A DNA stretch of 64,000 bases from Pseudonocardia parietis. GTDB taxonomy: Bacteria; Actinomycetota; Actinomycetes; Mycobacteriales; Pseudonocardiaceae. Shown piece by piece: positions 35,187 to 54,712 of the stretch. The stretch is from contig NZ_JAGINU010000001.1 of assembly GCF_017876315.1 (NCBI RefSeq), forward strand, positions 186,001 to 250,000. Reading direction: 5' to 3'. Under the pieces are notes generated by a model that did not search any database, was not told the origin of the DNA, and saw only the letters and a list, made by a program, of their open reading frames with translations. The translations under genes and the position numbers were made by a program. Numbering within the stretch: the stretch's first letter is position 1; each line of letters begins with the position of its first letter.

Positions 35187-36290
35187 TCAGCCCAGGTCGA
35201 CGATCGCGGCGACCGGGCCGCCGCCCTCCGGGCCCTGGTGCGCGGCGGACACCGACACGAACACCGCCGGGTCCCCGGTGACGGCCGCGGTGACCCCGCC
35301 GACGCAGGCCTTGATCTGGCGGTGCCAGTGCACGTCGGAGTCGTCGAGCATGGCGTTGCGCCGCCCGCGGACGGTGCCGTCCAGCGACGCCTCGCACTTG
35401 AGGAACACGTTGACCAGCCGGTCACCGAGGTCGGAGGTGCGCGGGCGCTCCGGCAGGTCGAGCCCGGCGTCGCGGATCGCGTTCCAGATGCCGTCGGCGT
35501 CGAGGGCGTCGTTCATCACCGAGTGCCCGACCCGGTAGCGACCGCCGACCCCGCGGGCGTTGCCGACGACGACGACCTGCGCCCGGTCCAGCTCCACACC
35601 GGACGAGCAGGACGCCACCGCGGAGTACAGGTCGCGGGAGTGCATGACGTCGTCGTCGGTCGGCATCTCGATCTCACCGAGGGCGACGGCGACACCGAGC
35701 GCGGTGCAGCCGTTCGACAGGTCCATCGACTCGTGAGTCTGCTCGGTCCACACCGTCGCGCCGCGGGACTTGGCGTCGCGGATGGTGTGGATGGTCAGCA
35801 GCGGGGTCTTGGTCTGGACGTAGTGGACGTCGGCCGGGTCGGTGATGCCGGCGCGCTTCATCGCCGCGTGCACGGCGTCGGCCACCTTGGTGATCATCGG
35901 GGTGCGGCCGATGTCCTCCGGGGCGAGCTGCTCGCTCATCGCGAAGCCGACGGTGAGACGCGGCTCGTCGGACGGCGTGGCCTCCTCCGGCGGGACGGTC
36001 GCGAAGATCGTCGCGTGCGGGCTGATCACGCCGTCGGTGCCGCCGGACCAGACGATCGGGACGTCGCGGACCTGCGTGGCCGGTGCACCCTTCTCGATGA
36101 GCACCTCGCGGAAGGCACGGTCGGCGATGATCCGGGTGTAGTCGTTGACCCCGCCGTTGCCCTCGGTCTTGCCGATGATCGCGACGACCCGCTCGGCCCG
36201 CAGGTCACCGGAGTCGATCAGTTTCGCGAGCTCGCTCGCGTCGGCGACGGAGTGGATCGGGACCTTGCGTACCTCGATGGCGTCGGGCAT
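35187..36290 (-). CDS. Ring-opening amidohydrolase (barbiturase/cyanuric acid hydrolase family)
   Basis: A 367-residue member of the AtzD/TrzD/barbiturase family, which consists of three repeated domains, each giving a Ser-Lys pair. Seen here: [14 protein letters not shown] and [11 protein letters not shown] (domain 1), VQTKTPLLT and [16 protein letters not shown] (domain 2), [17 protein letters not shown] and [15 protein letters not shown] (domain 3). Barbiturase opens barbiturate to ureidomalonate; cyanuric acid hydrolase makes carboxybiuret. The uracil-type permease and molybdenum hydroxylase nearby favour barbiturase. It starts 11 bases after the carbamate kinase stop, so the two are cotranscribed. 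Confidence 0.88.
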
Positions 36291-36301
36291 GACGACTCCT
36301 C

Positions 36302-37237
36302 TCAGGACGGGACGACGACGGTTCCGGAGTCGCCGGTGAGCGACTCCGCCAGGTGTTCCAGATCGGTGATGACGGCCCGGGTACCGCCGTGCTCGACGAA
36401 CCGGCAGGCGGCGTCGACCTTGGGGCCCATGGAGCCCCCGGCGAAGTGCCCCTCGGCGGCGTGGGCGCGCATCTTCTCGACCGGCACCACGCCCAGCGGC
36501 TCGGCCGACGGGGTGCCGAAACGCAGCACCGCCTGCGGCACGTCGGTGCCGATGACCAGCACGTCGGCGTGCACGGTGCGGGCCAGCTGCGCGGCGCCGA
36601 GGTCCTTGTCGATGACCGCCTCGACGCCGTGCAGTGACCCGTCACCGGCCCGCACCACCGGGATCCCGCCGCCACCCCCCGCGACGACGACGAACCCGGC
36701 ATCGACGAGTGCCCGGATCGCGGCCCCGTCGACGATCTCGCGTGGCTCCGGCGAGGCGACGACCCGGCGCCACCCGCGCTCGCCGCGGTCCTCCCAGTGC
36801 TGGCCGTGCCCGGCGAGGACCGCGGCCTCGTCGGCGGGCAGGTAGCGGCCGATCGGCTTGGTCGGCCGGCTGAAACCGGGATCGTCGGCGGCGACGACGG
36901 TGCGGGTGACGACGGCGGCGGTGCGCCGGTCGATCCCGCGGGTGGCCAGCGCCGCGTCGAGCGCGGTGGTGAGGACGAAGCCGAGCGTCCCCTGGGTCTG
37001 CGCGCCGCACCAGTCCAGCGGGACGGGCGGGACCACCGAGGCGGCCAGCTCGTTCTTCACCAGCAGGTTGCCGACCTGCGGGCCGTTGCCGTGGGTGATC
37101 ACCACATCGACCTCGCGGGCCAGCAGCCCGGCGACGGCGGCGGCCGCGACCCGGGCCGCGGCCACCTGGTCCTCGGGCCGGGCGCGACCGTCGGCGGCGG
37201 TCATCGCGTTGCCGCCCAGCGCCAGCAGAACCCTCAC
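36302..37237 (-). CDS. arcC: Carbamate kinase
   Basis: A 311-residue carbamate kinase: LLALGGNAM at the start, [14 protein letters not shown], the PTKPIG loop and [15 protein letters not shown] near the C-terminus. It converts carbamoyl phosphate plus ADP to ATP, with carbamate falling apart to CO2 and ammonia. No arginine deiminase genes are present. Its partners here are the barbiturase 11 bases downstream and the FdrA-type transcarbamylase genes about 15 kb away, which would supply carbamoyl phosphate. The GTG start lies 4 bases from a perfect 16-bp palindrome. Confidence 0.9.
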
Positions 37238-37241
37238 GCCG

Positions 37242-37257
37242 ACGAACCTAGGTTCGT
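37242..37257. promoter_or_regulatory. Perfect 16-bp palindrome before carbamate kinase
   Basis: ACGAACCTAGGTTCGT is fully symmetric and ends 4 bases before the carbamate kinase start codon. It is a strong operator candidate for the carbamate kinase-barbiturase unit. The rest of the 163-base gap upstream holds nothing else clear. Confidence 0.6.
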
Positions 37258-37400
37258 GGTGCGACCTGGATCACCGTCTGCTGAGACGGAAAGCGGACCG
37301 GATCGATGGCAGTTGTTGCCGAATCTGCGGCAGCACGCGGGCGCGTGCCGGAAAGGGTGCGTCACAGCAGTGCCGTCCTTGTCGTGGGAGGACGCCGTGC

Positions 37401-38087
37401 TCAGCGGTCGAGCAGGGCGGTGAGCGTGCGGGTGCCGACGGGCAGGCCGTGCCGGTCGTAGTAGGCGAACATCGCGTCGAGCCACTCGCCGAGCCCGGAG
37501 GGCCCGGGGACCCGCTCGGCGGTGACACCGGCCTCGGCGGCGAGCTCGGCGACGGTGGCGGTGCGGGACGCGAGCTCGTAGGTCGCGCCGGCGTGCCCGG
37601 GTTCGAGCAGCACGGTGGCGGCGGCCGCGGCGACGTCGGCCAGGTCGGCGAAACCGAAGACGGCGTCGACGTCGTAGGGCACCCGGACCGGACCGGTGAC
37701 GTCGACGTTCTGCAGGTAGGCGCCCGGCTGCAGGATCGTCCAGTGAAGACCGGACCGGCGCACGAGATCCTCGGCCCGGGCCTTGCCCAGGTGGTGCGGC
37801 ATGTCCGGGGCGTACGGCGAGGCCACCGAGTGGTAGACGACCCGCCCGACGCCCGCGGCCCGCAGCTCGTCGAGCAGTCCGGCGATCAGTGCGGGCTCGT
37901 CCGGATGCATGTTCGGGGCGATCAGGTACGCGGCGTCGCACCCGGCCGCGGCTGCCCGGACCCGGTCGCCGCGCCCCAACGGGACGGCCGTGGCACCGCG
38001 CTCGTGCAGCGCCGCCGCGACCGCCTGCCCCGTCTTCCCGTTACCTCCCGGGATCGCCACCCGCAGCACCGCACCCACCCCTCTCAC
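37401..38087 (-). CDS. NmrA-like NAD(P)-binding protein
   Basis: A protein of up to 228 residues of the atypical short-chain dehydrogenase/NmrA group. The dinucleotide loop is PGGNGKTGQAV near the N-terminus; VVYHSVASPY and WTILQPGAYLQNV are typical of the family. Four in-frame GTG codons (38087, 38078, 38069, 38060) make the start uncertain; the third has a GAGGGG about 8 bases upstream. Such proteins act as reductases or redox sensors. Whether it serves the pyrimidine cluster is unclear. Confidence 0.75.
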   Translation of the reverse strand: MRGVGAVLRVAIPGGNGKTGQAVAAALHERGATAVPLGRGDRVRAAAAGCDAAYLIAPNMHPDEPALIAGLLDELRAAGVGRVVYHSVASPYAPDMPHHLGKARAEDLVRRSGLHWTILQPGAYLQNVDVTGPVRVPYDVDAVFGFADLADVAAAAATVLLEPGHAGATYELASRTATVAELAAEAGVTAERVPGPSGLGEWLDAMFAYYDRHGLPVGTRTLTALLDR

Positions 38088-38179
38088 TTCCGATCGCGTG
38101 CCCCACCGAAAGACACCCAGATGCTCCGCCAGGAACCCTCACGTGCCACTCGGCGCCCATCGGGCGTGCGTCGCGCAGC

Positions 38180-40138
38180 TCAGAGCCGGTCTACGTCGGC
38201 GTGGGGGGCGCCGGCGGCCAGGGCCGCGTAGCCGGGGCCTCGGTCGAAGAAGGCGTCGTCGGCCTTGGACCAGGCGGAGCGGCCGGCGCGCTCGGTGATG
38301 GTGGCGGCGGGGTCGTGGGCCAGGGTGTCGTCGTCGAGCGTGCCGGTGAGCACGACGCCGTAGTCGGCGAAGGCGGCCTCGGGCGACACCTTGCGCCACA
38401 CGACGTCCTGCACGACCGCTTCCGGCTCGCGGGCGAGCGGGTCGCCCCAGCCGCCACCCCCGGTGGTGCGGATCCGGATCACCTCACCCGCGGCGACCGG
38501 CTCGGCGTCGGCCAGCGCGTCGACCTCGCGCTCGTTCGGCCCGTCCGGGTCGATGACGACCTGGAACGGGTGCCCGGCCTTGCCGCCCCTCACGCCCCAG
38601 CAGGCCAGGATCGACCGGTCCGCGATGGACATGAAGTGCGCGTTCTTGAGCATCCGGATGTGCTTCTCGTAGCCGAGACCGCCACGGAACTCGCCCGGGC
38701 CGCCGGAGTCGACGGCCAGCGACAGCGACTCCACCAGGAACGGGAAGCGGGCCTCGGTGAACTCGGTCGGCAGGTTCCGCGAGTCCGGGACGACGTGGAT
38801 GGTGTCCTCGCCGTCGGCGTAGTACCGGCCGCCGGATCCGCCACCGAGCACCTCGCGCATGAGGTAGGGGCGGCCCTCGAGGTCCTCGCCGTAGACGCCG
38901 GTGTAGCGGATCGTCTCCTGGTCGGCGGGCATCTGCCCGTCGACCGCCTTGGCGACGACGCCGGCGAGCACGCCGAGCAGCCGCAGGATGACGAACGTGC
39001 GGGCGTTGGTCGGCGCCGGGAAGACCGGGGTCAGCAACGTGCCGGGGGGCGGGAACCGCATCTCGATCAGCGGGACGATGCCCTCGTTGACGTCGAGCTC
39101 GGCCATCCGCTCCGGGGAGTCGGCGAGGTTGCGCAGGATCGGCGCGAGCCACTTCTTGAGGAAGACGCCGTCGGAGTAGTCACCGCAGTGGTTGATCGGC
39201 CCCTTGGCCTGCGGCGACGTCCCGGCGAAGTCGAGGATCAGCCGCTCGCCGTCCGGGTCGTCGGGGCCGGTGCGGGTCAGCGTGATCCGCTGGGTGTGCA
39301 GCTTCGGCTCGTCGACGCCGTCGTGCTCGGCGTAGTCCTCCCAGGTCCAGGTGCCGACCGGGATCCGGCCGAGGATCTCCCGGCGGTAGGTCTCGGTGGT
39401 GCGGGAGATGATCGCGTCGAAGCAGGACTCGACGGTCTCGACGCCATAGCGGTCGAACAGCTCCCCGAGCCGGCGTGCGCCCATCAGGCAGGCCGAGCAC
39501 TCTGCGTCGAGGTCCGCAGACAGCGACTCGGGCATCCGCGAGTTCCGGGTCATGATCGCCAGGGCGGCCCGGTTGGGGACACCGGCATCCCACAGCCGGA
39601 TCGGCGGGACCATCAGCCCCTCGGAGAACACGCTGGTCGCGTTGGACGGCATCGAGCCGGGGACAGCACCACCGATGTCGTCGTGGTGCCCGAACGCCTG
39701 GACGAACGCGACCACCCGGCGGTCGTCGGCGGGCCCGGCGAAGACCGGGACGGTCACGCACAGGTCGGGCAGGTGCCCGATGCCGCCCTCGGAGCGGTAG
39801 ACGTCGTTGTGGAAGAAGACGTCGCCCTCGCGCATCTCCTCGATCGGGAACTCGCGGGCGATCGGGTGCACCAGCGCCGAGTAGGAGCGGCCGGTGAGCT
39901 TGCGCAGCCTGCGGTCGTGGATGCCGGCGCGGAAGTCGTGCGCGTCGCGGATCATCGGGCTGCGGCTGGTGCGGGCGATGGCGGTCTCGACCTCCATCTC
40001 CACGCTGGCCAGCGAGCCCTGCACGATCTCGACGAGGACGGGGTCGGCGCTCGCGCCGGCGTCACCGGTGAGCGGGCCGAACGGGAACTGGGTGGGAGCC
40101 CGGCGGGAGCCGGTGTCCGGGACGACGACGGCGGTCAC
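38180..40138 (-). CDS. hyuB: Hydantoinase B/oxoprolinase family protein
   Basis: A 652-residue HyuB-type subunit. Characteristic segments: SRSPMIRDAHDF near residue 60, FHNDVYRSEGGIGHLPDL, GSMPSNATSVFSEGL and the C-terminal TTGGGGWGDPLAREPE. With HyuA it forms ATP-dependent enzymes opening cyclic amides (hydantoins, 5-oxoproline) or carboxylating ketones. The GTG start overlaps the hyuA stop by 4 bases. The substrate here is unknown; a ureide or lactam of pyrimidine origin would fit the neighbourhood. Confidence 0.88.
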   Translation of the reverse strand: MTAVVVPDTGSRRAPTQFPFGPLTGDAGASADPVLVEIVQGSLASVEMEVETAIARTSRSPMIRDAHDFRAGIHDRRLRKLTGRSYSALVHPIAREFPIEEMREGDVFFHNDVYRSEGGIGHLPDLCVTVPVFAGPADDRRVVAFVQAFGHHDDIGGAVPGSMPSNATSVFSEGLMVPPIRLWDAGVPNRAALAIMTRNSRMPESLSADLDAECSACLMGARRLGELFDRYGVETVESCFDAIISRTTETYRREILGRIPVGTWTWEDYAEHDGVDEPKLHTQRITLTRTGPDDPDGERLILDFAGTSPQAKGPINHCGDYSDGVFLKKWLAPILRNLADSPERMAELDVNEGIVPLIEMRFPPPGTLLTPVFPAPTNARTFVILRLLGVLAGVVAKAVDGQMPADQETIRYTGVYGEDLEGRPYLMREVLGGGSGGRYYADGEDTIHVVPDSRNLPTEFTEARFPFLVESLSLAVDSGGPGEFRGGLGYEKHIRMLKNAHFMSIADRSILACWGVRGGKAGHPFQVVIDPDGPNEREVDALADAEPVAAGEVIRIRTTGGGGWGDPLAREPEAVVQDVVWRKVSPEAAFADYGVVLTGTLDDDTLAHDPAATITERAGRSAWSKADDAFFDRGPGYAALAAGAPHADVDRL

Positions 40139-42213
40139 TGCGAAACCTTCCGGGTCACGATGATGTTCAGGTGCTCGTCGATGCGGGCGGTGAAGCCGGG
40201 GTGCAGCGGCGAGGTGGAGCCGAACTCCTCGACGATCGCCGGCCCGTCGACGACCGCGCCGGGCACCAGGTCGGAACGCCGGTAGACGGGGGTGTCGACG
40301 AAGCCGTCGGCGGCGTCGAAGCACACCGGCCGCCGGGACACCTCGGTGGCGACCGGGTCGGCGACGAGGTCGTGGCGCGGGATCTCGGGGCGGCGGATCG
40401 GCCCGATCCCGGAGACGCGCAGGTTCACCCACTCGACCTGCTGGTCGGGGTCACCGGCGAAGTCGTAGCCGTACAGCGTGCGGTGTGCGGCGTGGAACGC
40501 CTCCGCGACAGTGTCCAACGTGGACGCGGTCACCGGCCCGTCCGGCACCGGGACCCGCACCTCGAAGGCCTGCCCGAAGTAGCGCAGGTCCGCGGTCCGG
40601 ACGAAGCCGTGCTGCTCGGGGGCGAACCCCTCCCGGTTCAGCGCCGCGGTGGCCTGCCCGGTGAGGTCGCCGACGATCCGGGTGACGTCGGCCGGGTCGA
40701 GGGTGTCGGCCAGCGCGACGTGGGTCTGCACGTAGTCGTTCTTGACGTCGACGGTGAGCAGCCCGAACGCGGAGACGTTGCCGGGGTTCGGCGGGACCAG
40801 CACGGTCGGGACGCCGAGCACGTCGACCAGCCGGCACAGCAGCAGCGACCCGGACCCGCCGAACGTGGTGAGCGCGAAGTCGCGGACGTCGAGGCCGCGC
40901 TTCACGGTGACCTGGCGCAGCGCGTTGGCCTGGTTCCAGGCGGAGATCTCCAGGATCCCGGTGGCGCACGCCTCCGGGCTCAGCTCGAGCTCCTTGGCGA
41001 GGGTCTCGATACCGGCGCGGGCGGCGTCGACGTCGAGCGGGATCTCGCCGCCGAGCAGGTGCGGCGGGATCCGGCCGAGGAACACGTGCGCGTCGGTGAT
41101 GGTCACCTCGGTGCCGCCCCGGCCGTAGCAGAGCGGTCCCGGGTCGGCGCCCGCCGAGTGCGGGCCGACCTTCAGGGTGCCCTCCGGCGAGATCCACGCG
41201 ATGGAGCCGCCACCCGCGCCGACCGTGACGACGTCGATCATCGGGATCTTGGACGGGAACCGGCCGACCGTGCCCTCGGTGGTCAGCGTCGGCTCGCCGT
41301 CGATCACCACCGAGACGTCGGTGGAGGTGCCGCCGCCGTCGGAGGTCAGGACCTTGTCGAAGCCGGCCTCCTTCGCGATCAGCGCGGCGCCGAGCGCGCC
41401 GGCCGCCGGTCCGGACAGGACGGTGGTGATCGGCTGGTGGACGACCTCGTCGGCGGAGAGCACGCCGCCGTTGGACTTCATGACGTAGAACGGGATCTCG
41501 CGGTCGTCGTACTCGGCGAGCCGGTTCTTGATGTTGCCGACGTACGCCGAGAGCCGCGGCTTCACCGCGGCGTCCACCAGCACCGTCGTGGCTCGCTCGA
41601 ACTCGCGGTACTCCCGCAGCACCTCGCTGGACAGCGACACGACGGCCTCGGGGTGCTCCTCGGTGAGGATCTCCCGCATCCGCTGCTCGTGCGAGGGCTC
41701 GGCGTAGGCGTGCAGGAAGCAGACGCCGAGGGTGTTCACGCCGTGGTCGCGGAACCAGCGGGCGGCCGCCCGCGCGCCCGCCTCGTCGAACGGGCGGACC
41801 TGCGCGCCGGTGTGGTCCAGCCGGCCCTCGACGCCCTTCACCAGGTGCCGCGGCACGATCCGGCTCGGCTTGACCCAGAAGTAGGAGTTGCCGTAGCCGT
41901 CCGGCACCGACTGGCGGGCGATCTCCAGCATCGCCTCGTAGCCGGCCGTGGTGATGAAGCCGAGCCGGTCGACCTTGCCCTCGAGGAGCTGGTTGGTCGC
42001 GACCGTGGTGCCGTGGCTGACGGCCTCGATCGCGGAGCCGTCCGCACCCAACAGGCCCAGGACCTTGTCGATCCCGGCCAGGAACCCGTCGGCCGGGTTG
42101 GCGGGGGTGGACGGCGTCTTGGTGGTGACGAGCTCGCCCGCCTCCTCGTCGAAGGCGACGACGTCGGTGAACGTCCCACCGGTGTCGATGCCGATCCGGA
42201 TGCGCCGGGTCAT
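40135..42213 (-). CDS. hyuA: Hydantoinase A/oxoprolinase family protein
   Basis: A 692-residue HyuA-type subunit with the actin-like ATPase fold: IGIDTGGTFTDVVAFDEEAG at the start, VSHGTTVATNQLLEGK, TSDGGGTSTDVSVV and VTVGAGGGSIAWIS. It couples ATP hydrolysis to ring opening or carboxylation with HyuB. ATG 42213 has AGGAGG 7 bases upstream. It begins a new unit 105 bases after the amidase gene; that gap carries a small inverted repeat, so it may be separately controlled. Confidence 0.9.
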   Translation of the reverse strand: MTRRIRIGIDTGGTFTDVVAFDEEAGELVTTKTPSTPANPADGFLAGIDKVLGLLGADGSAIEAVSHGTTVATNQLLEGKVDRLGFITTAGYEAMLEIARQSVPDGYGNSYFWVKPSRIVPRHLVKGVEGRLDHTGAQVRPFDEAGARAAARWFRDHGVNTLGVCFLHAYAEPSHEQRMREILTEEHPEAVVSLSSEVLREYREFERATTVLVDAAVKPRLSAYVGNIKNRLAEYDDREIPFYVMKSNGGVLSADEVVHQPITTVLSGPAAGALGAALIAKEAGFDKVLTSDGGGTSTDVSVVIDGEPTLTTEGTVGRFPSKIPMIDVVTVGAGGGSIAWISPEGTLKVGPHSAGADPGPLCYGRGGTEVTITDAHVFLGRIPPHLLGGEIPLDVDAARAGIETLAKELELSPEACATGILEISAWNQANALRQVTVKRGLDVRDFALTTFGGSGSLLLCRLVDVLGVPTVLVPPNPGNVSAFGLLTVDVKNDYVQTHVALADTLDPADVTRIVGDLTGQATAALNREGFAPEQHGFVRTADLRYFGQAFEVRVPVPDGPVTASTLDTVAEAFHAAHRTLYGYDFAGDPDQQVEWVNLRVSGIGPIRRPEIPRHDLVADPVATEVSRRPVCFDAADGFVDTPVYRRSDLVPGAVVDGPAIVEEFGSTSPLHPGFTARIDEHLNIIVTRKVSQ

Positions 42214-42291
42214 GCCTGGTCCTCCTGCTGCCGGGGCGTGGCCCTGCTTGGGCACGGCTCGATTCAACCCGCGCAGGAGGTGCGCCGACAT

Positions 42292-42335
42292 GGCAAAGAT
42301 TGCCGTCGGAACGCCTCGTTACTGGCAATGATTGG
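42292..42335. promoter_or_regulatory. Repeated GGCAA-nGA-TTG motif upstream of hyuA
   Basis: A perfect inverted repeat GGCAA-AGA-TTGCC lies at 42292-42304, and a similar copy, GGCAATGATTGG, at 42324-42335 overlaps the last codons of the amidase gene. The copies are about 32 bases apart, three helical turns, as expected for a cooperative operator. Confidence 0.4.
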
Positions 42336-43728
42336 AGTACTGCTCCACGGCGGCGGCGACCTCCAGCAGGCGCCGGTCGGCGCCGTGTCGCGCGACGATC
42401 TGGATCCCCACCGGCAACCCGTCCGGCGTCGTCCCGAACGGCACCGAGATCGCCGGGCAGCCGGTGACGGTGATCAGGTACGCCGACCGCATCCAGTCCA
42501 GGTAGGACTCCATCGGCCGTCCGTCGATCGCGGTCGGGAACTCCTGGTCGGCAGGGAAGGGCGGCACCTGCGACACGGGCAGCACCAGCACGTCGTGCTC
42601 GGCGAAGAACTCCCGCATCCGCTGGGCCAGCGCACTCCGCCGCCGGTAGGCCAGCGCGATGTCCGGGCCGGTCAGGGTCTCGCCGGCCCGGATGTTCGCG
42701 GCGAGCGAGGCCTTGAACTGCTCCGGGTGCTCGGCGAGCAGGTCCCCGAAGCGGGCCTGGAAGTGCCAGGCACGCAGGGTCCGGAAACACTCGTCGGCGC
42801 CGGTCAGGTCGGGGACCGCGGAGCCGACGGACGCGCCGGCACCGGCCAGCGCCCGTCCGGCGGCCTCGACGACCGCGCCCACCTCGGGGTCGACCGCGAA
42901 GGCACCACCGAGGTCGGGCGAGAGCGCGACCCGCAGACCGGCCGGCGGCGCCGGCTCCAGCGGCGGAGCGAACGTCGCCCCCGGGTCGCCGAGCGCGTGC
43001 GGGGCCCGCGGGTCCGGGCCGGCCAGCACCGACAGCAGCAGCGCCAGGTCGCCGACGGTGCGGGCCATCGGGCCACCGGTGCTCGTGGTCTCCCACATGT
43101 TGGCCTGCGGCCACTCCGGCACCCGGCCCCAGGACGGCCGCAACCCGACCACCCCGCAGAACGACGCCGGGTTGCGCAGCGAGCCACCCATGTCCGAGCC
43201 CTCGGCCAGCGGCACCATCCCGGCCGCGAGCGCGCACGCGGCGCCACCCGACGAACCGCCCGCGGAACGGGACGGGTCGTGCGGGTTGAGCGTGGTGCCG
43301 AAGACCGGGTTGAACGTGTGCGAGCCGGCCGCGAACTCCGGGACGTTGGTCTTGCCGATCGGCACCGCCCCGGCTCGCCGGATCCGCTCGACGACCAGCT
43401 CGTCGGTCTCCGGGACGTGCTCAGCGAACAGCGGCGAGCCGTAGGTGGTGCGCCACCCCGCGGCGTCGTGGGTGTCCTTGAACGCGAACGGCAGCCCGTG
43501 CAGCGGGCCCGGGTCCGTCCCGGCGGCGAGGGCCTCGTCGGCGGCGGCCGCGGTGGCGCGGGCGCGTTCCGGATCCAGCGAGACGACCGCGTTCAGCTGC
43601 GGGTTCCGCTCGGCGATCCGGTGCAGGTGCAGCTCCAGGAGCTCGCGCGCCGAGATCTCCTTGGCACGCAGCGCCGCGGCCTGCGCACGGGCGGTCGAGT
43701 CCACCGACAGGGCGGGCCCGCCGGTCAC
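42319..43728 (-). CDS. Amidase-signature family amidase
   Basis: A 469-residue amidase. The Ser-Ser-Lys triad is visible: Lys in FAFKDTHD (about residue 85), Ser in AGGSSGGAACALAAG, and Ser in GSDMGGSLRNPASFCGVVGLRP. It hydrolyses an amide to acid and ammonia. In this operon it overlaps coxG by 4 bases and so is co-produced with the molybdenum hydroxylase and permease. Malonamate, expected from ureidomalonate after carbamoyl removal, would be a logical substrate; a malonamidase of this family is known from Bradyrhizobium. This assignment is inference. Confidence 0.87.
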   Translation of the reverse strand: MTGGPALSVDSTARAQAAALRAKEISARELLELHLHRIAERNPQLNAVVSLDPERARATAAAADEALAAGTDPGPLHGLPFAFKDTHDAAGWRTTYGSPLFAEHVPETDELVVERIRRAGAVPIGKTNVPEFAAGSHTFNPVFGTTLNPHDPSRSAGGSSGGAACALAAGMVPLAEGSDMGGSLRNPASFCGVVGLRPSWGRVPEWPQANMWETTSTGGPMARTVGDLALLLSVLAGPDPRAPHALGDPGATFAPPLEPAPPAGLRVALSPDLGGAFAVDPEVGAVVEAAGRALAGAGASVGSAVPDLTGADECFRTLRAWHFQARFGDLLAEHPEQFKASLAANIRAGETLTGPDIALAYRRRSALAQRMREFFAEHDVLVLPVSQVPPFPADQEFPTAIDGRPMESYLDWMRSAYLITVTGCPAISVPFGTTPDGLPVGIQIVARHGADRRLLEVAAAVEQYSNHCQ

Positions 43729-46795: not shown

Positions 46796-47277
46796 GAGGA
46801 CGCCCCGATCTCCGCCGCCCGCTCCACTGCACGCACGATGTTCTGGTAGCCCGTGCACCGGCAGAGGTTCCCGGCGATCATGTCCCGGGCCTGCTCGTGG
46901 GTCGGGCACGGCTCGCGGCGCAGCCCGGCGGTGACCGTCGTCAGGAAGCCGGGGGTGCAGAACCCGCACTGCAGGCCGTGGCACTCGGCGAACGCCTGCT
47001 GCACCGGCGAGAGCGTCCCGTCCGGCTCCGCCAACCCCTCGACGGTGGTGATGTCGTGTGTTTGGGCGGCGACCGCCAGCATCAGGCAGGCCCGCACCGG
47101 TTCGCCGTCGGCCAGGATCGTGCAGGACCCGCAGACTCCGTGCTCGCAGCCGACGTGCGTCCCGGTCAGTCCCAGATCGTGACGCAACGCGTCGGACAGC
47201 AGCCGCCGCGCCGGGACCCGCAGCTCGTGCTCGATCCCGTTCACCCGCAGGCGGATCTCGTGCAGCGTCTCGCTCAC
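46792..47277 (-). CDS. Molybdenum hydroxylase [2Fe-2S] subunit (CoxS-type)
   Basis: A 161-residue iron-sulfur subunit. The plant-type cluster motif is GCEHGVCGSC with a further Cys in VRACLML; the second cluster is in LQCGFCTPGFL and GNLCRCTGYQNIV. It moves electrons from the molybdenum site of the large subunit to the FAD subunit. The order here, FAD-FeS-Mo subunit, is the coxMSL order. Both ends overlap neighbours by 4 bases. Confidence 0.93.
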   Translation of the reverse strand: MSETLHEIRLRVNGIEHELRVPARRLLSDALRHDLGLTGTHVGCEHGVCGSCTILADGEPVRACLMLAVAAQTHDITTVEGLAEPDGTLSPVQQAFAECHGLQCGFCTPGFLTTVTAGLRREPCPTHEQARDMIAGNLCRCTGYQNIVRAVERAAEIGASS

Positions 47278-48110
47278 GGCTGTGCTCCCTTCAGCATCGC
47301 AGCGGAGTTCTCGACCGCGGAAGCCACGACGCGGTCGGTCAGTACCCGCACGAGCGTGCGTCGGTAGGCGGCCGTGGCGTGGATGTCACCGATCGGGTCC
47401 AGCTGTTCCAGCGCCGCATCGGCCCGGTCGCCCGGGTCGAGCCCGGTCAGGTCGACGACGGTCGGCACGTCGCTCACCGACAGGTAGCCGACCCGGATCC
47501 GCTCGCCCTCGACCAGCGCGGCCACCCCGACCAGGGCGTAGTCGCCGTGCCGGCGAGCGATCTCGTCGAAGGCGACACCCGCCCCGGGGGGCAGCGCGGG
47601 GAAGAAGGCGGAGACGGCGATCTCGTCCGGCCCCACCGACGACTCCAGCGGGCCGGTGAACAGCTCGGACGCGGCGATCGCGCGGCGCCCGGCGGGCCCC
47701 TCGACGTCCAGCGACCCGCCGAGCAGGCTCAGCACCACCGGCATCTCGGCGGCGGCGTCGGCGTGCGCCAGCGACCCGACCGTCGTCCCGCGGTTGCGGA
47801 TGGTGGCGTGCGCGACGTGCTCGAGGGCCATCGGCACCAGCGGCTGCACCCGGGCGACGTCCGGCGACTCCAGCACGGTGGTGTGCCGGGCCAGCGCGCC
47901 GACCCGTACCCCGTCGGCGGTGACCGTGACGGCGCCGAGACCGGGCAGGCCGTTGATGTCGACGAGCAGCGACGGCGCGGCGAGGCGCATCGACAGCAGC
48001 GGGATCAGGCTCTGCCCGCCTGCCAGCACCTTGCTGTCCGGTGTGGACAGCGCGGCGACGGCGTCGGCCAGCCGGTCGGGCCGTACGTAGTCGAAGGGAG
48101 CAGGTTTCAC
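47274..48110 (-). CDS. Molybdenum hydroxylase FAD subunit (CoxM-type)
   Basis: A 278-residue FAD-binding subunit. Motifs are LAGGQSLIPLLSMRLAAP (about residues 29-46) and TIRNRGTTVGSLAHADAAAEMP (about 103-124), both flavin contacts in the CoxM/xanthine dehydrogenase family. It receives electrons from the CoxS-type subunit. The GTG start overlaps the permease stop by 4 bases, so uptake and oxidation are translated from one message. Confidence 0.93.
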   Translation of the reverse strand: MKPAPFDYVRPDRLADAVAALSTPDSKVLAGGQSLIPLLSMRLAAPSLLVDINGLPGLGAVTVTADGVRVGALARHTTVLESPDVARVQPLVPMALEHVAHATIRNRGTTVGSLAHADAAAEMPVVLSLLGGSLDVEGPAGRRAIAASELFTGPLESSVGPDEIAVSAFFPALPPGAGVAFDEIARRHGDYALVGVAALVEGERIRVGYLSVSDVPTVVDLTGLDPGDRADAALEQLDPIGDIHATAAYRRTLVRVLTDRVVASAVENSAAMLKGAQP

Positions 48111-49534
48111 GGGGTCTTCTTCGTCTCCTGGTCGTCATCGGCGCCGGGCGCCGTGGTCGTCATCCCACCGGCCGGTGTCCCCGCGGCGGGCACGGACTCT
48201 CCGGTCCGGCGGTCGCGCAGCGCGACGGCGTGGAAGTAGACGATGACCATGATCGTGCCCAGCGCGATGCCGCCGAGCTCGAAACCGCCACCGAAGTCCA
48301 TGGCCACGCCGCCGATGCCCGCGACGAGGCCCGCCGCGAGCCCCACGAGGTTGCGCGGCTCGGCGAAGTCGACACCGTTCTCCACCCAGATCTTCGCTCC
48401 GACCAGGGCGATCATCCCGTAGAGCACCACGGTGATCCCGCCGAGCACGCCGCCCGGGATGGCACCGACCAGCACCCCGAACTTCGGGCAGAGCCCCAGC
48501 ACGATCGCGACGCCGGCCGCGACGTAGTACGCGGCGGTGGAGTACACGCGGGTGGCGCCCATGACGCCGATGTTCTCCGCGTAGGTGGTCGTCGGGGAGC
48601 CGCCGAACAGGCTCGCGAGCGCGGTGGCGGCACCGTCGGCACCGATGGCACGACCCATGTACGGGTCGAGGTCGTCACCGGTCATCTCGGCGACGGCCTT
48701 GACGTGCCCGAGGTTCTCGGCGATCAGCGCGATCACGCCCGGGAGCACCAGCAGGAGGAACACGAGCGAGAAGCTCGGCCCGTGCACGGCGGCCACACCG
48801 TCGTCCAGGGTGCCGCTGGGCAGGCCGAACCAGGCGGCGTCGGAGAGGCCCTCGAACGTGACACGCGAGTGCGGCTCCGGGGTGCAGTCGGCGCCGCCGC
48901 AGGAGGTGATCGGGCCGAACACGACGTCGAACAGGAACGAGATCACGAAGCCGAAGACGAGCGCGAGGAACACCGCGATCCGGCCCCAGAAGCCGGGGAA
49001 CAGCACCGCGGCGCACACCAGGAAGGTCGCCGTCAGCAGCGCCGTCCACTGGTCCACCGGCCAGTACACCGACGCGACGACCGGGGCGAGGTTGAACCCG
49101 ATCAGCATGACGACGGCGCCGGTGACGGCGGGCGGCAGCACGGCGTGCACCAGGCGCGGCCCGGCGAAGTGCACGAACACGCCGACGGCGAGCAGCACGA
49201 GACCGGACAGCAGGATCGCGCCGGTGACGTCCGCGGAGTCGCCGCCCATCGCGCGGATCGCGGCCACGCCGCCGACGAACGCCGCGCTGGTGCCGAGGTA
49301 GCTGGGGACCCGGTTCTTGCAGACGACCAGGAACAGAATCGTGCAGATCCCGGAGAACAGGATGGCGAGGTTCGGGTCGAGCCCCATCACCACCGGGAAG
49401 ACGAACGTCGCACCGAACATCGCGACGACGTGCTGGATACCCAGCCCCGCGGTCCTCCCCCACGGCAGCCGCTGCTTGGCTCCGACCGCCTCACCGGGAG
49501 CGGGATCGACGACCTCCCACTTGAACATCGACAT
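48107..49534 (-). CDS. NCS2-family uracil-type permease
   Basis: A 475-residue nucleobase-cation symporter with about 14 helices. The substrate-contact segment TTTYAENIGVMGATRVYST matches UraA/RutG-type uracil permeases, whose Glu in the (G/A)ENIGV segment binds uracil; xanthine and urate carriers have a different sequence there. This is the best single hint to the pathway's substrate. The ATG has GGAGG about 9 bases upstream. It heads a six-gene operon (permease, coxM, S, L, G, amidase), every junction a 4-base overlap. Confidence 0.9.
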   Translation of the reverse strand: MSMFKWEVVDPAPGEAVGAKQRLPWGRTAGLGIQHVVAMFGATFVFPVVMGLDPNLAILFSGICTILFLVVCKNRVPSYLGTSAAFVGGVAAIRAMGGDSADVTGAILLSGLVLLAVGVFVHFAGPRLVHAVLPPAVTGAVVMLIGFNLAPVVASVYWPVDQWTALLTATFLVCAAVLFPGFWGRIAVFLALVFGFVISFLFDVVFGPITSCGGADCTPEPHSRVTFEGLSDAAWFGLPSGTLDDGVAAVHGPSFSLVFLLLVLPGVIALIAENLGHVKAVAEMTGDDLDPYMGRAIGADGAATALASLFGGSPTTTYAENIGVMGATRVYSTAAYYVAAGVAIVLGLCPKFGVLVGAIPGGVLGGITVVLYGMIALVGAKIWVENGVDFAEPRNLVGLAAGLVAGIGGVAMDFGGGFELGGIALGTIMVIVYFHAVALRDRRTGESVPAAGTPAGGMTTTAPGADDDQETKKTP

Positions 49535-49710
49535 CTCGATCCCCCTCCGGTTCTGCTACTTCGCGAACCCGACTCAAGCTAATGAGACCCAGGTCGCACC
49601 TCGACGGCGATCCTTGCCGATCGTTGTGCGGATCCACTGGCACGAATTGATGACGCGGCACCGTGACACGCGTGCGGGTCCCCGTAGGTTTCGCGGAGAT
49701 TTCGCCGCAC
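49535..49710. promoter_or_regulatory. Gap between the permease operon and pucR
   Basis: A 176-base, somewhat lower-GC region that must hold the promoter of the permease-hydroxylase-amidase operon on the minus strand. I see no strong palindrome, tRNA or small gene in it. Confidence 0.35.
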
Positions 49711-51114
49711 TCAACGGCTGATCTTGAGCGCCTGCAGGGCCACCGCGACGTCGAGGCGCAGGTTCGGGTCCGTCGACAGTGGTCCGAGCAGCCGCTCCAG
49801 CTTCGAGACCCGGTACCGCATCGTGTTGTAGTGGAAGAACTGCGACCGGGCCGCCTCGGCGACGTTGAAGTTGGTGTCGAGCAGGATCTGCAGCGTCTCC
49901 CGCAGCTCGGTCGCCTCGGCGGTCGGTTCGGCGAGCGGTCCCAGCGCGTCCCGCACGAAGGACGTCAGCTCGGCCGGGTCCGGGATGAGTGCGATCAGCC
50001 GGTGCAGGCCGAGCTGGTCGAAGAACGTGGTGCGGCCCCCGCCACCGATCCGCCTGCCGACCTCGACCGCGCGCCGGGCCTGCCCGTAGGCGCCCGGCAG
50101 GGAGTCGACGTCGGCGACCGGGCGGCTCACCCCGGCCGAGAACGGGCGACGGCCACCGCCCTTGTCCCCGGCCACCGCGGTGACCGCCCGCTGCACGAGG
50201 TCCCGGCCGGGCGGGCCGTCGGTGCCCTTGCCACCACCTTTGCCGCCCTTGCCGCCCCCGCCCCCGCCGCCGGCGCCGCTCCGGTCGCCGCCCGAGCCGC
50301 CGACCGGGCCGCCGACCGGGCCGCCGACCGGGAGCAGGGTGACCACCTCGGAGGAGAAGTCGACCGTCGGAATGCCCGGGCCCAGCCCGGTGCACACCTG
50401 ACGCCACGCCGCCGAGAACCGCTTCTGCCAGGTCCGCCGCTGCTCGCCGGAGACCGGCTCGTCGGTCGGGTCCAGCTCGGCCGACACCACGACCATCGGG
50501 CGGCGCAGGTCCCAGCCGAACAGGTCGGCGTGCTCGGCCACGTACGCCGGGTCGGCGGTGCGGCGCAGCAGCAGGTCCCGCAGGAAGTCGCCCTGGTACT
50601 TGGTCTCGACCGCGGTGACGGCCTCCTCGCGGGTGATCAGCAGCGCGGCGACCGCGGCGGCCCGTTCCAGGGCGTGGACGTCGTCCGGGGTCAGTCGCGC
50701 GTCCCGGCGCACGCACACCAGCCGGGCCAGGTTCTGCCCGCCCGCGGCGACCCGCAGCGTGCGCGCCTCACCGCCGCCGACGGCGACCCCGCCCGCCCCC
50801 ATCCGCTCCACCCTGAGCCGGCCGGTCGGATCGACGAGAGCGTGCTCGGCGAGCACCCCGCGGACGTCGTCGGGCAGCGCCGAGGCCCGCTCCCGGCCGT
50901 CGGTGGAGGTGAAGGCGACGCCCACGCCGAGCACCCGTCCGACCTCGGCCGCGATGCCGTCGAGATCGCCGCCCTCCAGGGCGATCTGGGTGAGGCCGGT
51001 GTGCAGGGCGTCGACCCGGGCCAGCGCGGCCCGGGCAGGCGGCTCGGGATCACTACGATCATGCTTGAGCAACAGTTGCCGTCCATCCACGCCGAAGGTG
51101 GCACAAGTTAACAT
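49711..51114 (-). CDS. PucR-family transcriptional regulator
   Basis: A protein of up to 467 residues with the C-terminal PucR helix-turn-helix (about 405-460; ILLDTNFNVAEAARSQFFHYN, then TMRYRVSKLERLLG). A Gly/Lys-rich low-complexity insert (about 257-300) interrupts the middle domain. PucR proteins activate purine or allantoin catabolism in other bacteria. It lies between the permease operon and the divergent DUF2877-FdrA-DUF1116 genes, so it is the natural regulator of the cluster. The ATG at 51114 leaves little room for a promoter; GTG 51090 is an alternative start. Confidence 0.88.
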   Translation of the reverse strand: MLTCATFGVDGRQLLLKHDRSDPEPPARAALARVDALHTGLTQIALEGGDLDGIAAEVGRVLGVGVAFTSTDGRERASALPDDVRGVLAEHALVDPTGRLRVERMGAGGVAVGGGEARTLRVAAGGQNLARLVCVRRDARLTPDDVHALERAAAVAALLITREEAVTAVETKYQGDFLRDLLLRRTADPAYVAEHADLFGWDLRRPMVVVSAELDPTDEPVSGEQRRTWQKRFSAAWRQVCTGLGPGIPTVDFSSEVVTLLPVGGPVGGPVGGSGGDRSGAGGGGGGGKGGKGGGKGTDGPPGRDLVQRAVTAVAGDKGGGRRPFSAGVSRPVADVDSLPGAYGQARRAVEVGRRIGGGGRTTFFDQLGLHRLIALIPDPAELTSFVRDALGPLAEPTAEATELRETLQILLDTNFNVAEAARSQFFHYNTMRYRVSKLERLLGPLSTDPNLRLDVAVALQALKISR

Positions 51115-51150
51115 CGGTCAAGCGTTGTGCCCAGGGCTAGCGTCGGATTC

Positions 51151-51879
51151 GTGATCCCCGCCGGCGCACCTGTCCGGGTCCGGGACCGGCTCCGCCGGAC
51201 CCCCGACGGCCCGGTCACGGTCGTGCACCGCGGACCGGACGCGGTCTACCTCGCGGTCGGTGACGGCTGCGTCGGCGTCACGGGGCGCCACGCGGTCGCG
51301 GTCCCCTGTGCGCTGCACACCCGCGTCGAGCGGTTCGATGTCGCGGACGCCCGGGTGCACGGCGGTGTGCTGCACCTCGACGGCGTCCCGCTGGTCGTAC
51401 GGCGACTGGTCGACACCCGCGTCCCGGCACTCCCGGCGACCGCCGCAGCGGCGACCGCACCCTCTTCGCCGGCCGGAATCGCCGAGCTCCCCACCGCCGT
51501 CACCACAGCCACGGTTCCCGGTCTCGTCGGGCGCGGCGACGGGCTCACCCCGCTCGGCGACGACGTCCTCTGCGGCTGGCTGGCCCTGCACCGCGCGGCC
51601 CGGGTGCCGACCCCGGAGGTCGACGACGCCGTGCGCGCCTGCCTGCACCGCACGACCCTGCTGTCCGCCGAGCTGCTGCGCTGCGCGCTCGACGGCGAGG
51701 TGATCCCGCAGTTCGCGGCGTTCGTCACGAGCGCGGGGGCGCTCGCCGCCGAGGCCGCGCTCACCGCCGTCGGTCACTCGTCCGGGATCGGGATGCTGCA
51801 CGGCGCCCGGCTCGCGCTGACCGGACTCCACCTGCCCACGCTCGATCCATCCACATTCCACGAAGGGGTCGCCGCATGA
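51151..51879 (+). CDS. DUF2877 protein (AllH-like carbamoyltransferase component)
   Basis: A 242-residue DUF2877 protein with the family loop GRGDGLTPLGDDVLCGWL. In E. coli the matching protein AllH works with AllF (FdrA) and AllG (DUF1116) in oxamate carbamoyltransferase, which turns oxalurate and phosphate into oxamate and carbamoyl phosphate. GTG 51151 is used; GTG 51127 in frame would add 8 residues but leaves only 12 bases to the divergent pucR. It overlaps fdrA by 4 bases. Confidence 0.85.
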   Translation: MIPAGAPVRVRDRLRRTPDGPVTVVHRGPDAVYLAVGDGCVGVTGRHAVAVPCALHTRVERFDVADARVHGGVLHLDGVPLVVRRLVDTRVPALPATAAAATAPSSPAGIAELPTAVTTATVPGLVGRGDGLTPLGDDVLCGWLALHRAARVPTPEVDDAVRACLHRTTLLSAELLRCALDGEVIPQFAAFVTSAGALAAEAALTAVGHSSGIGMLHGARLALTGLHLPTLDPSTFHEGVAA

Positions 51880-53300
51880 CGACGCACGTCGAGGTACGAC
51901 CCGGCGCCTACGCCGACTCCGTGACCCTGCTCCGGGTCAGCCGCACCGTGCAGGGACTCGACGGGGTCACCGCCGCGCAGGTCGCGATGGCCACCCCGCT
52001 CAACGTCGAGGTCCTCACCGGCATGGGATTCGAGGTCCCGCCGGGCACCGGATCGAACGACCTGGTGGTGGCGCTGCACCTGGCCGGCGACGAGGCGTTG
52101 CCGGCCGCGCTGGCCGGGGTCGAGCGCGCGCTGCAGGAGGCGAACCGCCCGGCCGGGAACGGTGACGGCCCCGCCGTCGCGCCCCCGCGCACCACCGGCT
52201 CCGCGCTGGAGCGCGAGGCCGCCCCGATCGCGCTGGTGTCGGTGCCCGGCCCGCACGCCTGCGTCGAGGCGATGGACGCGCTCGACGCGGGCAGCGACGT
52301 CATGATCTTCAGCGACAACGTGCCGGTGGAGCAGGAGGTCGCCCTAAAGACAGTGGCGGCCGGCCGCGGACTGCTGGTGATGGGGCCGGACTGCGGCACC
52401 GCCGTCCTGCGCGGGATCGGCCTGGGGTTCGCGAACACCGTCGCCCCGGGGCCGGTCGGGATCGTCGCCGCGTCCGGCACCGGCTGCCAGCAGCTGCTGG
52501 CCCTGCTCGACCACGCCGGCGTCGGCGTGACCTCGGCGCTCGGGGTCGGCGGGCGGGACCTGTCGGCACCGGTCGGCGGGCTCGCCACCCGCGAGGCACT
52601 GCGCAGGCTCGACGCGGACCCGGCCGTCGAGCTGATCGTCGTGGTCTCCAAGCCCCCGGCCGACGAGGTCGCCGCCGCGCTCCGCGAACTGGCCGGGCAG
52701 CTCGCCACCCCCGTCGAGTTCGCGCTGCTCGGGGCCGGTCGGCCGGACCTCACCGCGGCCACCGAGGCGGTGCTGACCCGGCTCGGGCGGCCGGTGCCAC
52801 AGTGGCCGGTGCACGGCCGCGCACGTGCGGCCGGCGGTGGCCGGTACCTGCGCGGGCTGTTCGTCGGCGGCACCCTGGCGACCGAGGCCGAGCAGATCGC
52901 CGTCGCCGCGGCGGGACCCGACGCCGGGCACACCTTCGTCGACTTCGGCGACGACGCCTACACCGCGGGCCGGGCCCACCCCATGATCGATCCGACACTG
53001 CGCCTGGACCACCTGGGCAAGGCACTGGCCGACCCGGACACCGGCGCCGTGCTGCTCGACGTCGTGCTCGGGCACGGTGCCGAGCCCGATCCCGCCGCGC
53101 TGCTCGCCCCCGCGATCACCGGTGCGCCCGTACCGGTCGTCGTCACCGTCGTCGGGACCGGCGGCGACCTGCAGGACCTGCCACGCCAGGTCGGCACGCT
53201 GGTCGACGCCGGCGCCGAGGTGTACCTGTCCCACGCCCACGCCACCCGGCGGGCCCTCGCACTCGCGGCCGGGACCGCGCAGAACGGAGCCACCCTGTGA
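51876..53300 (+). CDS. fdrA: FdrA-like acyl-CoA-synthetase-fold protein (AllF-like)
   Basis: A 474-residue FdrA-type protein, related in fold to the succinyl-CoA synthetase alpha subunit. Motifs: VRPGAYADSVTLLRVSR at the start, SVPGPHACVEAMDALDAG, SDNVPVEQEVALK and GPDCGTAVLRGIGLGFAN. E. coli FdrA/AllF is part of oxamate carbamoyltransferase. Here the three genes overlap by 4 bases each, matching a fixed complex. With barbiturase and carbamate kinase in the same island, ureidomalonate is a likely carbamoyl donor; this is inference. Confidence 0.88.
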   Translation: MTTHVEVRPGAYADSVTLLRVSRTVQGLDGVTAAQVAMATPLNVEVLTGMGFEVPPGTGSNDLVVALHLAGDEALPAALAGVERALQEANRPAGNGDGPAVAPPRTTGSALEREAAPIALVSVPGPHACVEAMDALDAGSDVMIFSDNVPVEQEVALKTVAAGRGLLVMGPDCGTAVLRGIGLGFANTVAPGPVGIVAASGTGCQQLLALLDHAGVGVTSALGVGGRDLSAPVGGLATREALRRLDADPAVELIVVVSKPPADEVAAALRELAGQLATPVEFALLGAGRPDLTAATEAVLTRLGRPVPQWPVHGRARAAGGGRYLRGLFVGGTLATEAEQIAVAAAGPDAGHTFVDFGDDAYTAGRAHPMIDPTLRLDHLGKALADPDTGAVLLDVVLGHGAEPDPAALLAPAITGAPVPVVVTVVGTGGDLQDLPRQVGTLVDAGAEVYLSHAHATRRALALAAGTAQNGATL

Positions 53301-54712
53301 GTACGCCCGAGGCCGTCGTGAGCACCGGAACCGACCTGTTGGCCGACGCCGTCGCGGGCCAGGCCGTCCCCGTCACCCGGGTCGACTGGCGCCCGCCGAT
53401 GGAGGACACGGCGGACGATCTCGCCACCGTCGCCACCGACCCGCTGCGCCGGGACGCGAACGCCCGCGCGCTCGCGGCGATGCTCGGCGTCACCGCCACG
53501 CTGGTCGACGTCGCCCCGGCGTCGGAGGTCCTCGGGCTGGCGCGGGGCGAGTTCCTGCACGCCGGCCCGCCGATCACCTGGGACCGCGCCTCCGGGCCGT
53601 TGCGCGGCGCGCTGATGGGTGGCGCCGCGCTGGAGGGCCTGGTCGACGCCCCGGAGCAGGCGTCCGCGCTGTTCGAGGCGGGCACCTCGGTGTCGCTGGA
53701 GCCGTGCCACCACCGCTCGGCGGTCGGCCCGATGGCCGGCGTCGTCACCCCCAGCATGTGGATGCTCGTGCTGGAGGATCCGGCGACCGGGCGCCGCACC
53801 TACTGCTCGCTGAACGAGGGCCTGGGCAAGGTGCTGCGCTACGGCGCGTACGCCCCGGACGTCCTGGACCGGCTGCGCTGGCTGGGGAACGTGCTCGGGC
53901 CGCTGCTGCGTGCCGCGGTCCGGTCGGTGCGCGACGCGGGCACGCCGGTCGACGCCACCGCGATCCTCACCCAGATGCTGCAGATGGGCGACGAGGCGCA
54001 CAACCGCAACCGGGCCGGCACGCTCATGCTGCTGCGCGACCTGTCCCCCGCCCTGGTCACCGGGGCCGCGGATGCCGGCTTCTCCAGTGCCGATGTCGCC
54101 GCCGCGTTGCGGTTCGTCGGCGGCAACGACCACTTCTTCCTCAACCTGGCGATGCCGGCGTGCAAGCTCGCCCTCGACGCCGCCCGCGACATCGAGGGCT
54201 CGACGATGGTCGTCGCGATGGCTCGCAACGGCACCGACTTCGGGATCCAGGTCGCCGGCACCGGCGACGAGTGGTTCACCGGCCCGGCGCAGGTCGCCGA
54301 CGGCCTGTTCCTGGGCGACTACGGCCCGGACGACGCGAACCCGGACATCGGCGACTCCGCGATCACCGAGACGGCCGGGATCGGCGGGTTCGCCATGGCC
54401 ACCGCGCCGGCGATCGTCCGGCTGGTCGGCGGCAGCGTGCCGGACGCGCTGGCCACCACCCGCCGGATGCGCGAGATCACGATCGGGGAGAACCCCCGCT
54501 GGACGGTCCCGGTGCTGGAGTTCGCCGGGGTGCCCAGCGGCGTCGACGTGACCAGGGTGTGCCGGACCGGGATTCTCCCCCAGATCAACACCGGGATGGC
54601 CGGCCGGGTCGCGGGCGTCGGTCAGGTGGGTGCAGGGTTGGTGACGCCGCCCGCCGAGATCTTCCCGAAGGCGCTGGCCGGGCTCGCCGCGCGGACCCGC
54701 GCCCGGGGCTGA
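53297..54712 (+). CDS. DUF1116 protein (AllG-like)
   Basis: A 471-residue DUF1116 protein. Conserved stretches are VGPMAGVVTPSMWMLVLED, MGDEAHNRNRAGTLMLLRDL, GGNDHFFLNLAMPACKLALD, MARNGTDFGIQVAGTGDEWF and TGILPQINTGMAGRVAGVGQ. E. coli AllG (YlbE) is its counterpart and is needed with AllF and AllH to make carbamoyl phosphate from oxalurate. The GTG start overlaps fdrA by 4 bases; this is the last gene of the divergent unit. Confidence 0.88.
   Translation: MSTPEAVVSTGTDLLADAVAGQAVPVTRVDWRPPMEDTADDLATVATDPLRRDANARALAAMLGVTATLVDVAPASEVLGLARGEFLHAGPPITWDRASGPLRGALMGGAALEGLVDAPEQASALFEAGTSVSLEPCHHRSAVGPMAGVVTPSMWMLVLEDPATGRRTYCSLNEGLGKVLRYGAYAPDVLDRLRWLGNVLGPLLRAAVRSVRDAGTPVDATAILTQMLQMGDEAHNRNRAGTLMLLRDLSPALVTGAADAGFSSADVAAALRFVGGNDHFFLNLAMPACKLALDAARDIEGSTMVVAMARNGTDFGIQVAGTGDEWFTGPAQVADGLFLGDYGPDDANPDIGDSAITETAGIGGFAMATAPAIVRLVGGSVPDALATTRRMREITIGENPRWTVPVLEFAGVPSGVDVTRVCRTGILPQINTGMAGRVAGVGQVGAGLVTPPAEIFPKALAGLAARTRARG

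Follow-up and report, generated by a model that had tools for sequence, protein, structure and literature searches.

The oxidative pathway of pyrimidine degradation, as described, ends in malonate and urea, and the described barbiturase comes from Rhodococcus erythropolis (PMC3758960). In Escherichia coli, the subunits of oxamate carbamoyltransferase were reported in 2024 to be FdrA, DUF1116 and DUF2877 (AllFGH), which interconvert oxalurate with oxamate and carbamoyl phosphate and were assayed toward oxalurate synthesis (PMC11326118). AllFGH with carbamate kinase (allFGHK) also occurs beyond the enterobacteria, in nitrifiers (PMC12625717). The present analysis concerns positions 35187-54712 of a 64,000-nucleotide stretch of Pseudonocardia parietis DNA (contig NZ_JAGINU010000001.1, positions 186,001 to 250,000; guanine plus cytosine content 73.5%; host genome 8.1 Mb), hereafter the window, in which genes related to both systems are found in two divergent operons. 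With a probability of roughly 70%, this island degrades pyrimidines by the oxidative (barbiturate) route and ends in phosphorolysis instead of urea release.

In the proposed route, an NCS2 permease would import uracil, a form II-type molybdenum hydroxylase (CoxMSL) would convert it into barbiturate, and barbiturase would open the ring to give ureidomalonate. With phosphate, AllF, AllG and AllH, which form a subfamily of oxamate carbamoyltransferase, would then release malonamate and carbamoyl phosphate, the latter being used by carbamate kinase to form ATP from ADP, with ammonia and CO2; an amidase would free the second nitrogen, leaving malonate, which may reach acetyl-CoA aided by an AccDA-like protein. 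Both operons are probably under PucR control. As delimited by profile matches and open reading frames in the window, the genes are as follows, in order of transcription, first for the leftward row (from PucR to the AccDA-like gene) and then for the rightward row (AllH, FdrA, AllG):

49711..51114, minus strand: PucR-type regulator (PF13556, PF17853)
48107..49534, minus strand: NCS2 (UraA/RutG-like) permease (PF00860; the closest NCBIfam models, RutG and uracil permease, are both below cut-off)
47274..48110, minus strand: CoxM, FAD subunit (PF00941)
46792..47277, minus strand: CoxS, [2Fe-2S] subunit (PF01799, PF00111)
44417..46795, minus strand: CoxL, form II-type molybdenum hydroxylase large subunit, proposed uracil hydroxylase (NF040766, 1497 bits, cut-off 950; PYRGAGR, GAGE)
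43725..44420, minus strand: CoxG-like protein (PF06240)
42319..43728, minus strand: amidase-signature amidase, proposed malonamate amidase (PF01425, E 1.6e-107; PRK07486 subfamily, above cut-off)
40135..42291, minus strand: HyuA, hydantoinase A family (PF01968, PF05378; closest solved structure, N-methylhydantoinase 7hk5)
38180..40138, minus strand: HyuB, hydantoinase B/oxoprolinase family (PF02538, E 1e-133; CapB-like)
37401..38087, minus strand: NmrA-like NAD(P)-binding protein (PF13460; GGNGKTG motif in frame)
36302..37237, minus strand: carbamate kinase (PRK12352 over its full length, 318 bits, cut-off 266; TIGR00746, 326 bits, below its cut-off of 358)
35187..36290, minus strand: barbiturase (PF09663, E 4e-145; PDB 5hwe)
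33574..35064 (start uncertain), minus strand: AccDA-like carboxyltransferase (PF01039/PF03255), downstream of barbiturase and just past the 35187 border; a candidate for a malonyl-CoA step
51127..51879, plus strand: AllH (DUF2877; PF11392, 72 bits, cut-off 25)
51876..53300, plus strand: AllF (FdrA; PF00549; PRK06091 FdrA, 352 bits, below the subfamily cut-off of 433; PDB 3dmy FdrA)
53297..54712, plus strand: AllG (DUF1116; PF06545, 300 bits; barbiturase-linked group in the tree)

The families named by the initial annotation (permease, molybdenum hydroxylase with CoxG, ring opener, FdrA/DUF1116/DUF2877, carbamate kinase, amidase and PucR) were each recovered in place by profile matches, and three genes missing from its list, those for HyuB, HyuA and the NmrA-like protein, also lie inside the island. 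Overlaps of a few bases link the genes from the permease to the amidase, HyuA to HyuB, and AllH through FdrA to AllG. All fifteen genes from AllG to barbiturase are found in identical order in Pseudonocardia acidicola (loci L187 and L188), with identities of 60-90%.

The ring opener matches the solved barbiturase 5hwe over its full length with 683 bits, the runner-up among solved structures being a cyanuric acid amidohydrolase (331 bits). Its counterpart in R. erythropolis NBRC 15567 shows 85% identity. Five positions distinguish barbiturase, with N, H, K, V and S/A, from cyanuric acid hydrolase (Peat et al. 2013; PMC3758960). In the residue test for Group VI of the AtzD/Bar family, the alignment gives N193, H323, K327, V347 and S348 for the window, all five of the barbiturase type; for the first position, PMC4051656 gives Gln, not Asn, and the window has Asn. 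The same residue set is present in 80/80 named relatives, which come from the best 80 of 551 confirmed barbiturase loci, a set biased to near relatives with many Nocardioides and Intrasporangiaceae. A second sample, fixed at 396 genomes from the phylum, contains PF09663 in 27 and AllG in 49; among the 26 relatives other than the window's, 21 have N, H, K, V followed by S, G or A, the hydrolase set RTRGG is seen in two, and the other three fit neither pattern. The window's ring opener is thus classed as a barbiturase by its residues, and barbiturate hydrolysis is predicted. Degradation of cyanuric acid (an s-triazine), to which a score of 479 bits with the NCBI cyanuric acid amidohydrolase model (cut-off 360) would point, is very improbable: the five residues speak against a cyanurate-type ring opener, both RTRGG members of the sample lack AllG in their genomes, and barbiturase is reported as unreactive with cyanuric acid (PMC4051656). 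A preference for cyanurate, which the initial annotation had named as fatal to its proposal, is thereby contradicted at the level of the specificity residues (PMC3758960).

The ring openers with neither set, here called third-kind (L058 in genome G297, L059 in G181 and L060 in G192), read N-GGG/N---- or F-GGG/F.... by alignment, with the barbiturase set in neither and L060 incomplete. An amidase adjoins them, no AllG was found in their genomes, and CoxL proteins scoring about 1050 bits with NF040766 adjoin the ring opener in L059 and lie on other contigs in L058 and L060.

The survey of gene neighbourhoods suggested by the initial annotation gave a clearly favourable result. In 75 of the 80 named loci, carbamate kinase and barbiturase share a strand and lie no more than 300 bases apart, and AllG is present in 46 of the 49 genomes of these loci that were searched for it. 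By coordinates, AllG is less than 42 kb from barbiturase in 44 of the 46 (contig confirmed for 13; L082, counted among the 44, probably has its AllG on a separate contig), with a median of 23 kb for all 46, and it is on the strand opposite barbiturase in 45/46. In the 396-genome sample, AllG was found in 22/22 genomes with the barbiturase signature (host included), 0/5 with other ring openers and 27/369 without PF09663 (Fisher test, 7e-23 for 22/22 vs. 27/374), keeping in mind that genomes are not independent and that the 22 represent seven family codes; it lies on the same contig, less than 45 kb from barbiturase, in 17/22 and on a different contig in 5/22. The adjacency of carbamate kinase (75/80) and the presence of AllG (46/49) make this gene set more than chance. 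Among the open-access papers listed in literature searches, none described barbiturase combined with AllFGH or FdrA and carbamate kinase, although a description may exist elsewhere.

The three AllG-less genomes among the 49 are those of R. erythropolis, Rhodococcus sp. IEGM 1409 and Rhodococcoides fascians. R. erythropolis NBRC 15567 keeps the permease, CoxMSL, CoxG, HyuAB and the NmrA-like gene, whereas it has no AllG, no carbamate kinase match and an amidase directly after barbiturase. Carbamate kinase gave no match in any of the three Rhodococcus-type genomes, vs. a match in 4/4 comparison genomes, and an amidase lies directly 3' of barbiturase in all three (confirmed by Pfam in R. erythropolis). 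Urease is present in 3/3 of them vs. 14 of the 47 AllG genomes (host included, one partial match; Fisher test, 0.035). AllG and carbamate kinase are thus absent together where an amidase adjoins barbiturase. In gene content, AllFGH with carbamate kinase behaves as a substitute for hydrolysis at the final step, and the Rhodococcus-type genomes represent a natural exchange of this ending for the classical one, in which urea is released.

The window itself lacks the classical arrangement (no AllG, no carbamate kinase, amidase beside barbiturase), as AllFGH and carbamate kinase are present and the amidase is elsewhere in the operon. This amidase could nevertheless be a ureidomalonase, since its top match in R. 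erythropolis is the amidase next to barbiturase (41% identity) and the converse also holds; the host also encodes a urease, so that urea would be usable. A classical hydrolytic route, in which the island's amidase releases urea while AllFGH and carbamate kinase serve another ureide, is nonetheless unlikely: AllG accompanies the signature in all 22 genomes and is missing exactly in the three of 49 that also lack carbamate kinase, and 33 of the 47 AllG genomes show no urease. Moreover, the best match to the window's amidase in Rhodococcoides fascians is a different amidase (49%, vs. 43% for the barbiturase-adjacent one), and a Janibacter genome has no close amidase relative (best 33%), a nitrilase-family gene taking the amidase's position between CoxG and HyuA; relatives of this nitrilase occur in 7 of the 80 named loci. 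Concerning solved structures, malonamidase E2 was considered as the closest kin of the window's amidase and rejected, as GatA and urethanases score higher than malonamidase E2 (E 3e-30).

For the phosphorolytic step, the window holds all three subunit families of oxamate carbamoyltransferase (AllH, FdrA and AllG). Oxalurate is HOOC-CO-NH-CO-NH2 and ureidomalonate HOOC-CH2-CO-NH-CO-NH2, i.e. one CH2 more; by structural reasoning, phosphorolysis of the latter would yield malonamate and carbamoyl phosphate. The E. coli set (AllFGH and the carbamate kinase AllK) comprises the same families, with identities to the window's proteins of about 37% for AllF and 46% for AllG, but it is found with allantoin genes instead of barbiturase. 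The nitrifier allFGHK differs as well, as it adjoins biuret/triuret genes, and no atzD was found in the nitrifier genomes (PMC12625717). Quick trees, with support from the Shimodaira-Hasegawa-like approximate likelihood ratio test (SH-aLRT) only, placed the barbiturase-linked AllG in one group (30 rows, SH-aLRT 97; tree of 70 sequences) and the barbiturase-linked FdrA in another (28 rows, SH-aLRT 99; tree of 56), both standing apart from the E. coli oxamate carbamoyltransferase, the FdrA tree carrying a warning about the joining of long branches near the E. coli protein. The closest neighbours in the AllG tree are AllG proteins with HyuAB or a permease and without barbiturase. Because the barbiturase-linked AllG and FdrA form groups of their own, the island's AllFGH would be a carbamoyltransferase of this superfamily and not oxamate carbamoyltransferase itself. 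One AllG column reads Gly in 30/30 barbiturase-linked sequences, the island's included, and His in 25/35 others (His385 in E. coli), one FdrA column reads Asp in 28/28 vs. Lys in 16/23 others, and two further, weaker columns also passed the group-specificity filter. A sequence search found no solved AllG relative for placing the Gly/His position.

Purine genes are the best-known setting of PucR-type regulators, and a gene closest to guanine deaminase lies in 4 of the 80 clusters. Both would suit a purine or ureide island, in which AllFGH acts on oxalurate, in line with the E. coli enzyme working on oxamate and oxalurate (PMC11326118), and barbiturase and the hydroxylase act on a purine-derived ring. 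This is improbable, as the barbiturase-linked AllFG separate from the E. coli proteins in both trees, and another set of AllG, FdrA and carbamate kinase in the host (L053, contig 1, about 3677200-3687700; 38-44% identity) falls outside the barbiturase-linked groups. In addition, a comparison of loci at a threshold of 1e-10 (each spanning about 20 kb at most, and with distant homologues liable to escape) gave no match to E. coli AllC or AllE, and one to AllD only in L161 and L162, AllG loci without barbiturase link. A cytosine-deaminase-like gene, present in L037, L040 and L042 and in 2 of the 80 named loci, counts in favour of pyrimidine degradation; the deaminase of the Janibacter-type clusters was rejected as a cytosine deaminase, being nearer to guanine deaminase. 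In L037, L040 and L042, a gene resembling cytosine deaminase and isopropylammelide hydrolase and an M24 peptidase-family gene (closest to DddP) adjoin barbiturase.

Concerning the first step on the ring, CoxL has PYRGAGR at residue 362 and GAGE at 748-751, whereas the form I carbon monoxide (CO) dehydrogenase has the Cys motif (A/S)YRCS(F/L)R, and the activity of form II enzymes has been called unresolved (PMC13240472). With PYRGAGR in place of the Cys motif, CO oxidation of the form I type was rejected. CoxL thus shares its motif and its NF040766 (CODH_aero_grp5) score with the form II CO dehydrogenases, but is situated among pyrimidine genes. Its best-scoring solved relatives are quinoline 2-oxidoreductase (449 bits), 6-hydroxypseudooxynicotine dehydrogenase (434) and CO dehydrogenase (403), so that the closest one hydroxylates quinoline, a point in favour of a pyrimidine hydroxylase. 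NF040766 CoxL was found in 50/50 barbiturase genomes searched (the 49 and the host) and, in the phylum sample, scored above cut-off in 30/396 genomes, 21 of which carry the barbiturase signature (21/22; Fisher test, 8e-27). Given this co-occurrence, uracil hydroxylation is the simplest reading for CoxMSL. The nine other genomes above the cut-off are the three with a third-kind ring opener (G181, G192, G297), three with a CoxMSL-HyuAB-FdrA-AllG row and no PF09663 (G032, G135, G157), two with contigs carrying permease-FdrA-AllG (G013, G028) and an 80%-complete draft (G378). In this sample, the proteins that NF040766 labels 'aerobic CO dehydrogenase large subunit' come mostly from barbiturase or AllG genomes, and the name may mislead. 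As for uptake, the NCS2 permease reaches 345 bits with RutG, well short of the cut-off of 759; in L038, L046 and L048, an NMT1/THI5-like substrate-binding protein is part of the barbiturase cluster, and no RutG-type permease was matched there.

HyuAB was found in 61 of the 80 named loci and in all three Rhodococcus-type genomes, and homologues of the NmrA-like protein (at least 35% identity), to which the proposed route gives no role, in 36/80. The HyuA and HyuB families are shared with caprolactamase and N-methylhydantoinase, but the island's proteins score far under the cut-offs of those models. Since relatives of HyuAB use ATP and the pair is encoded in the same operon, the gain of one ATP per ring put forward initially is not established. 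HyuAB may be used for thymine or for a side substrate, or stand in for barbiturase in genomes without it: L147 (G032), L156 (G135) and L157 (G157) have a CoxMSL-HyuA-HyuB-FdrA-AllG row, their genomes lack PF09663, and HyuAB is perhaps the ring opener there. These three genomes, along with the wide occurrence of the pair, could also mean that ring opening falls chiefly to HyuAB, acting on a different ring (a hydantoin-like one, or thymine-derived 5-methylbarbiturate), with barbiturase in a secondary role. We consider this a slim chance, as no HyuAB turned up in 19 signature loci that are more distantly related (64-68% identity), in which barbiturase, AllG and CoxL yet remain together; these stretches cover 3-20 kb, and a gene missing from one may still be present in the genome.

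At the malonate end, a family III CoA-transferase (at least 50% identical to the Janibacter one) occurs in 41/80 barbiturase loci vs. 0/38 AllG loci not linked to barbiturase, and AccDA-like homologues (at least 50% identity) occur in 18/80 named loci, besides the window, vs. 0/38. This distribution suits malonate activation and decarboxylation, without proving it.

Taken together, the neighbourhood survey and the specificity residues support the route assembled by the initial annotation, from uracil through barbiturate and ureidomalonate to malonamate plus carbamoyl phosphate and on to malonate. The sequences show the gene content, the co-occurrence, the tree groups, the signature of barbiturase and the exchange in Rhodococcus; the reactions themselves, with uracil as the hydroxylase's substrate, malonamate as the amidase's and malonate as the product, and the regulation are inferred. 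Besides the amidase matches, the host urease, the cyanuric acid model score and the guanine-deaminase-like gene, several points weigh against it. The permease and carbamoyl genes fall short of some curated cut-offs, HyuAB is probably ATP-using and has no place in the proposed route, and the CoA-transferase was not found in the window, its best match in the host genome reaching 270 bits and 38%. One signature genome, G304 (L039), has another molybdenum hydroxylase (CoxL 30%) beside barbiturase and FdrA-AllG, which may have taken over the first reaction. A more specific proposal would make the barbiturase-linked AllFGH a new, putative ureidomalonate carbamoyltransferase yielding ATP from pyrimidine rings by substrate-level phosphorylation, and CODH group 5 a uracil/thymine dehydrogenase rather than a CO enzyme, while HyuAB may open a second ring, e.g. 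5-methylbarbiturate from thymine. The odds for this proposal appear even, because of the missed cut-offs of the permease and carbamoyl genes and of amidase matches that leave room for hydrolysis.

Outside the island, a Pls/PosA-type non-ribosomal peptide synthetase gene lies immediately 3' of AllG (54865-59022, plus strand) and the gene for the tryptophan synthase alpha chain at 26226-27035 (minus strand).

If the proposed route is correct, the oxidative pyrimidine pathway would gain an energy-conserving ending and the newly identified AllFGH carbamoyltransferases a second reaction, and the form II 'CO dehydrogenases', a large clade of enzymes whose activity is called unresolved (PMC13240472), would have a directly testable substrate. 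In the genomes searched, the putative phosphorolytic form was the commoner one (AllG in 46/49 named and 22/22 phylum-sample genomes), though the pathway described is the urea-releasing one.

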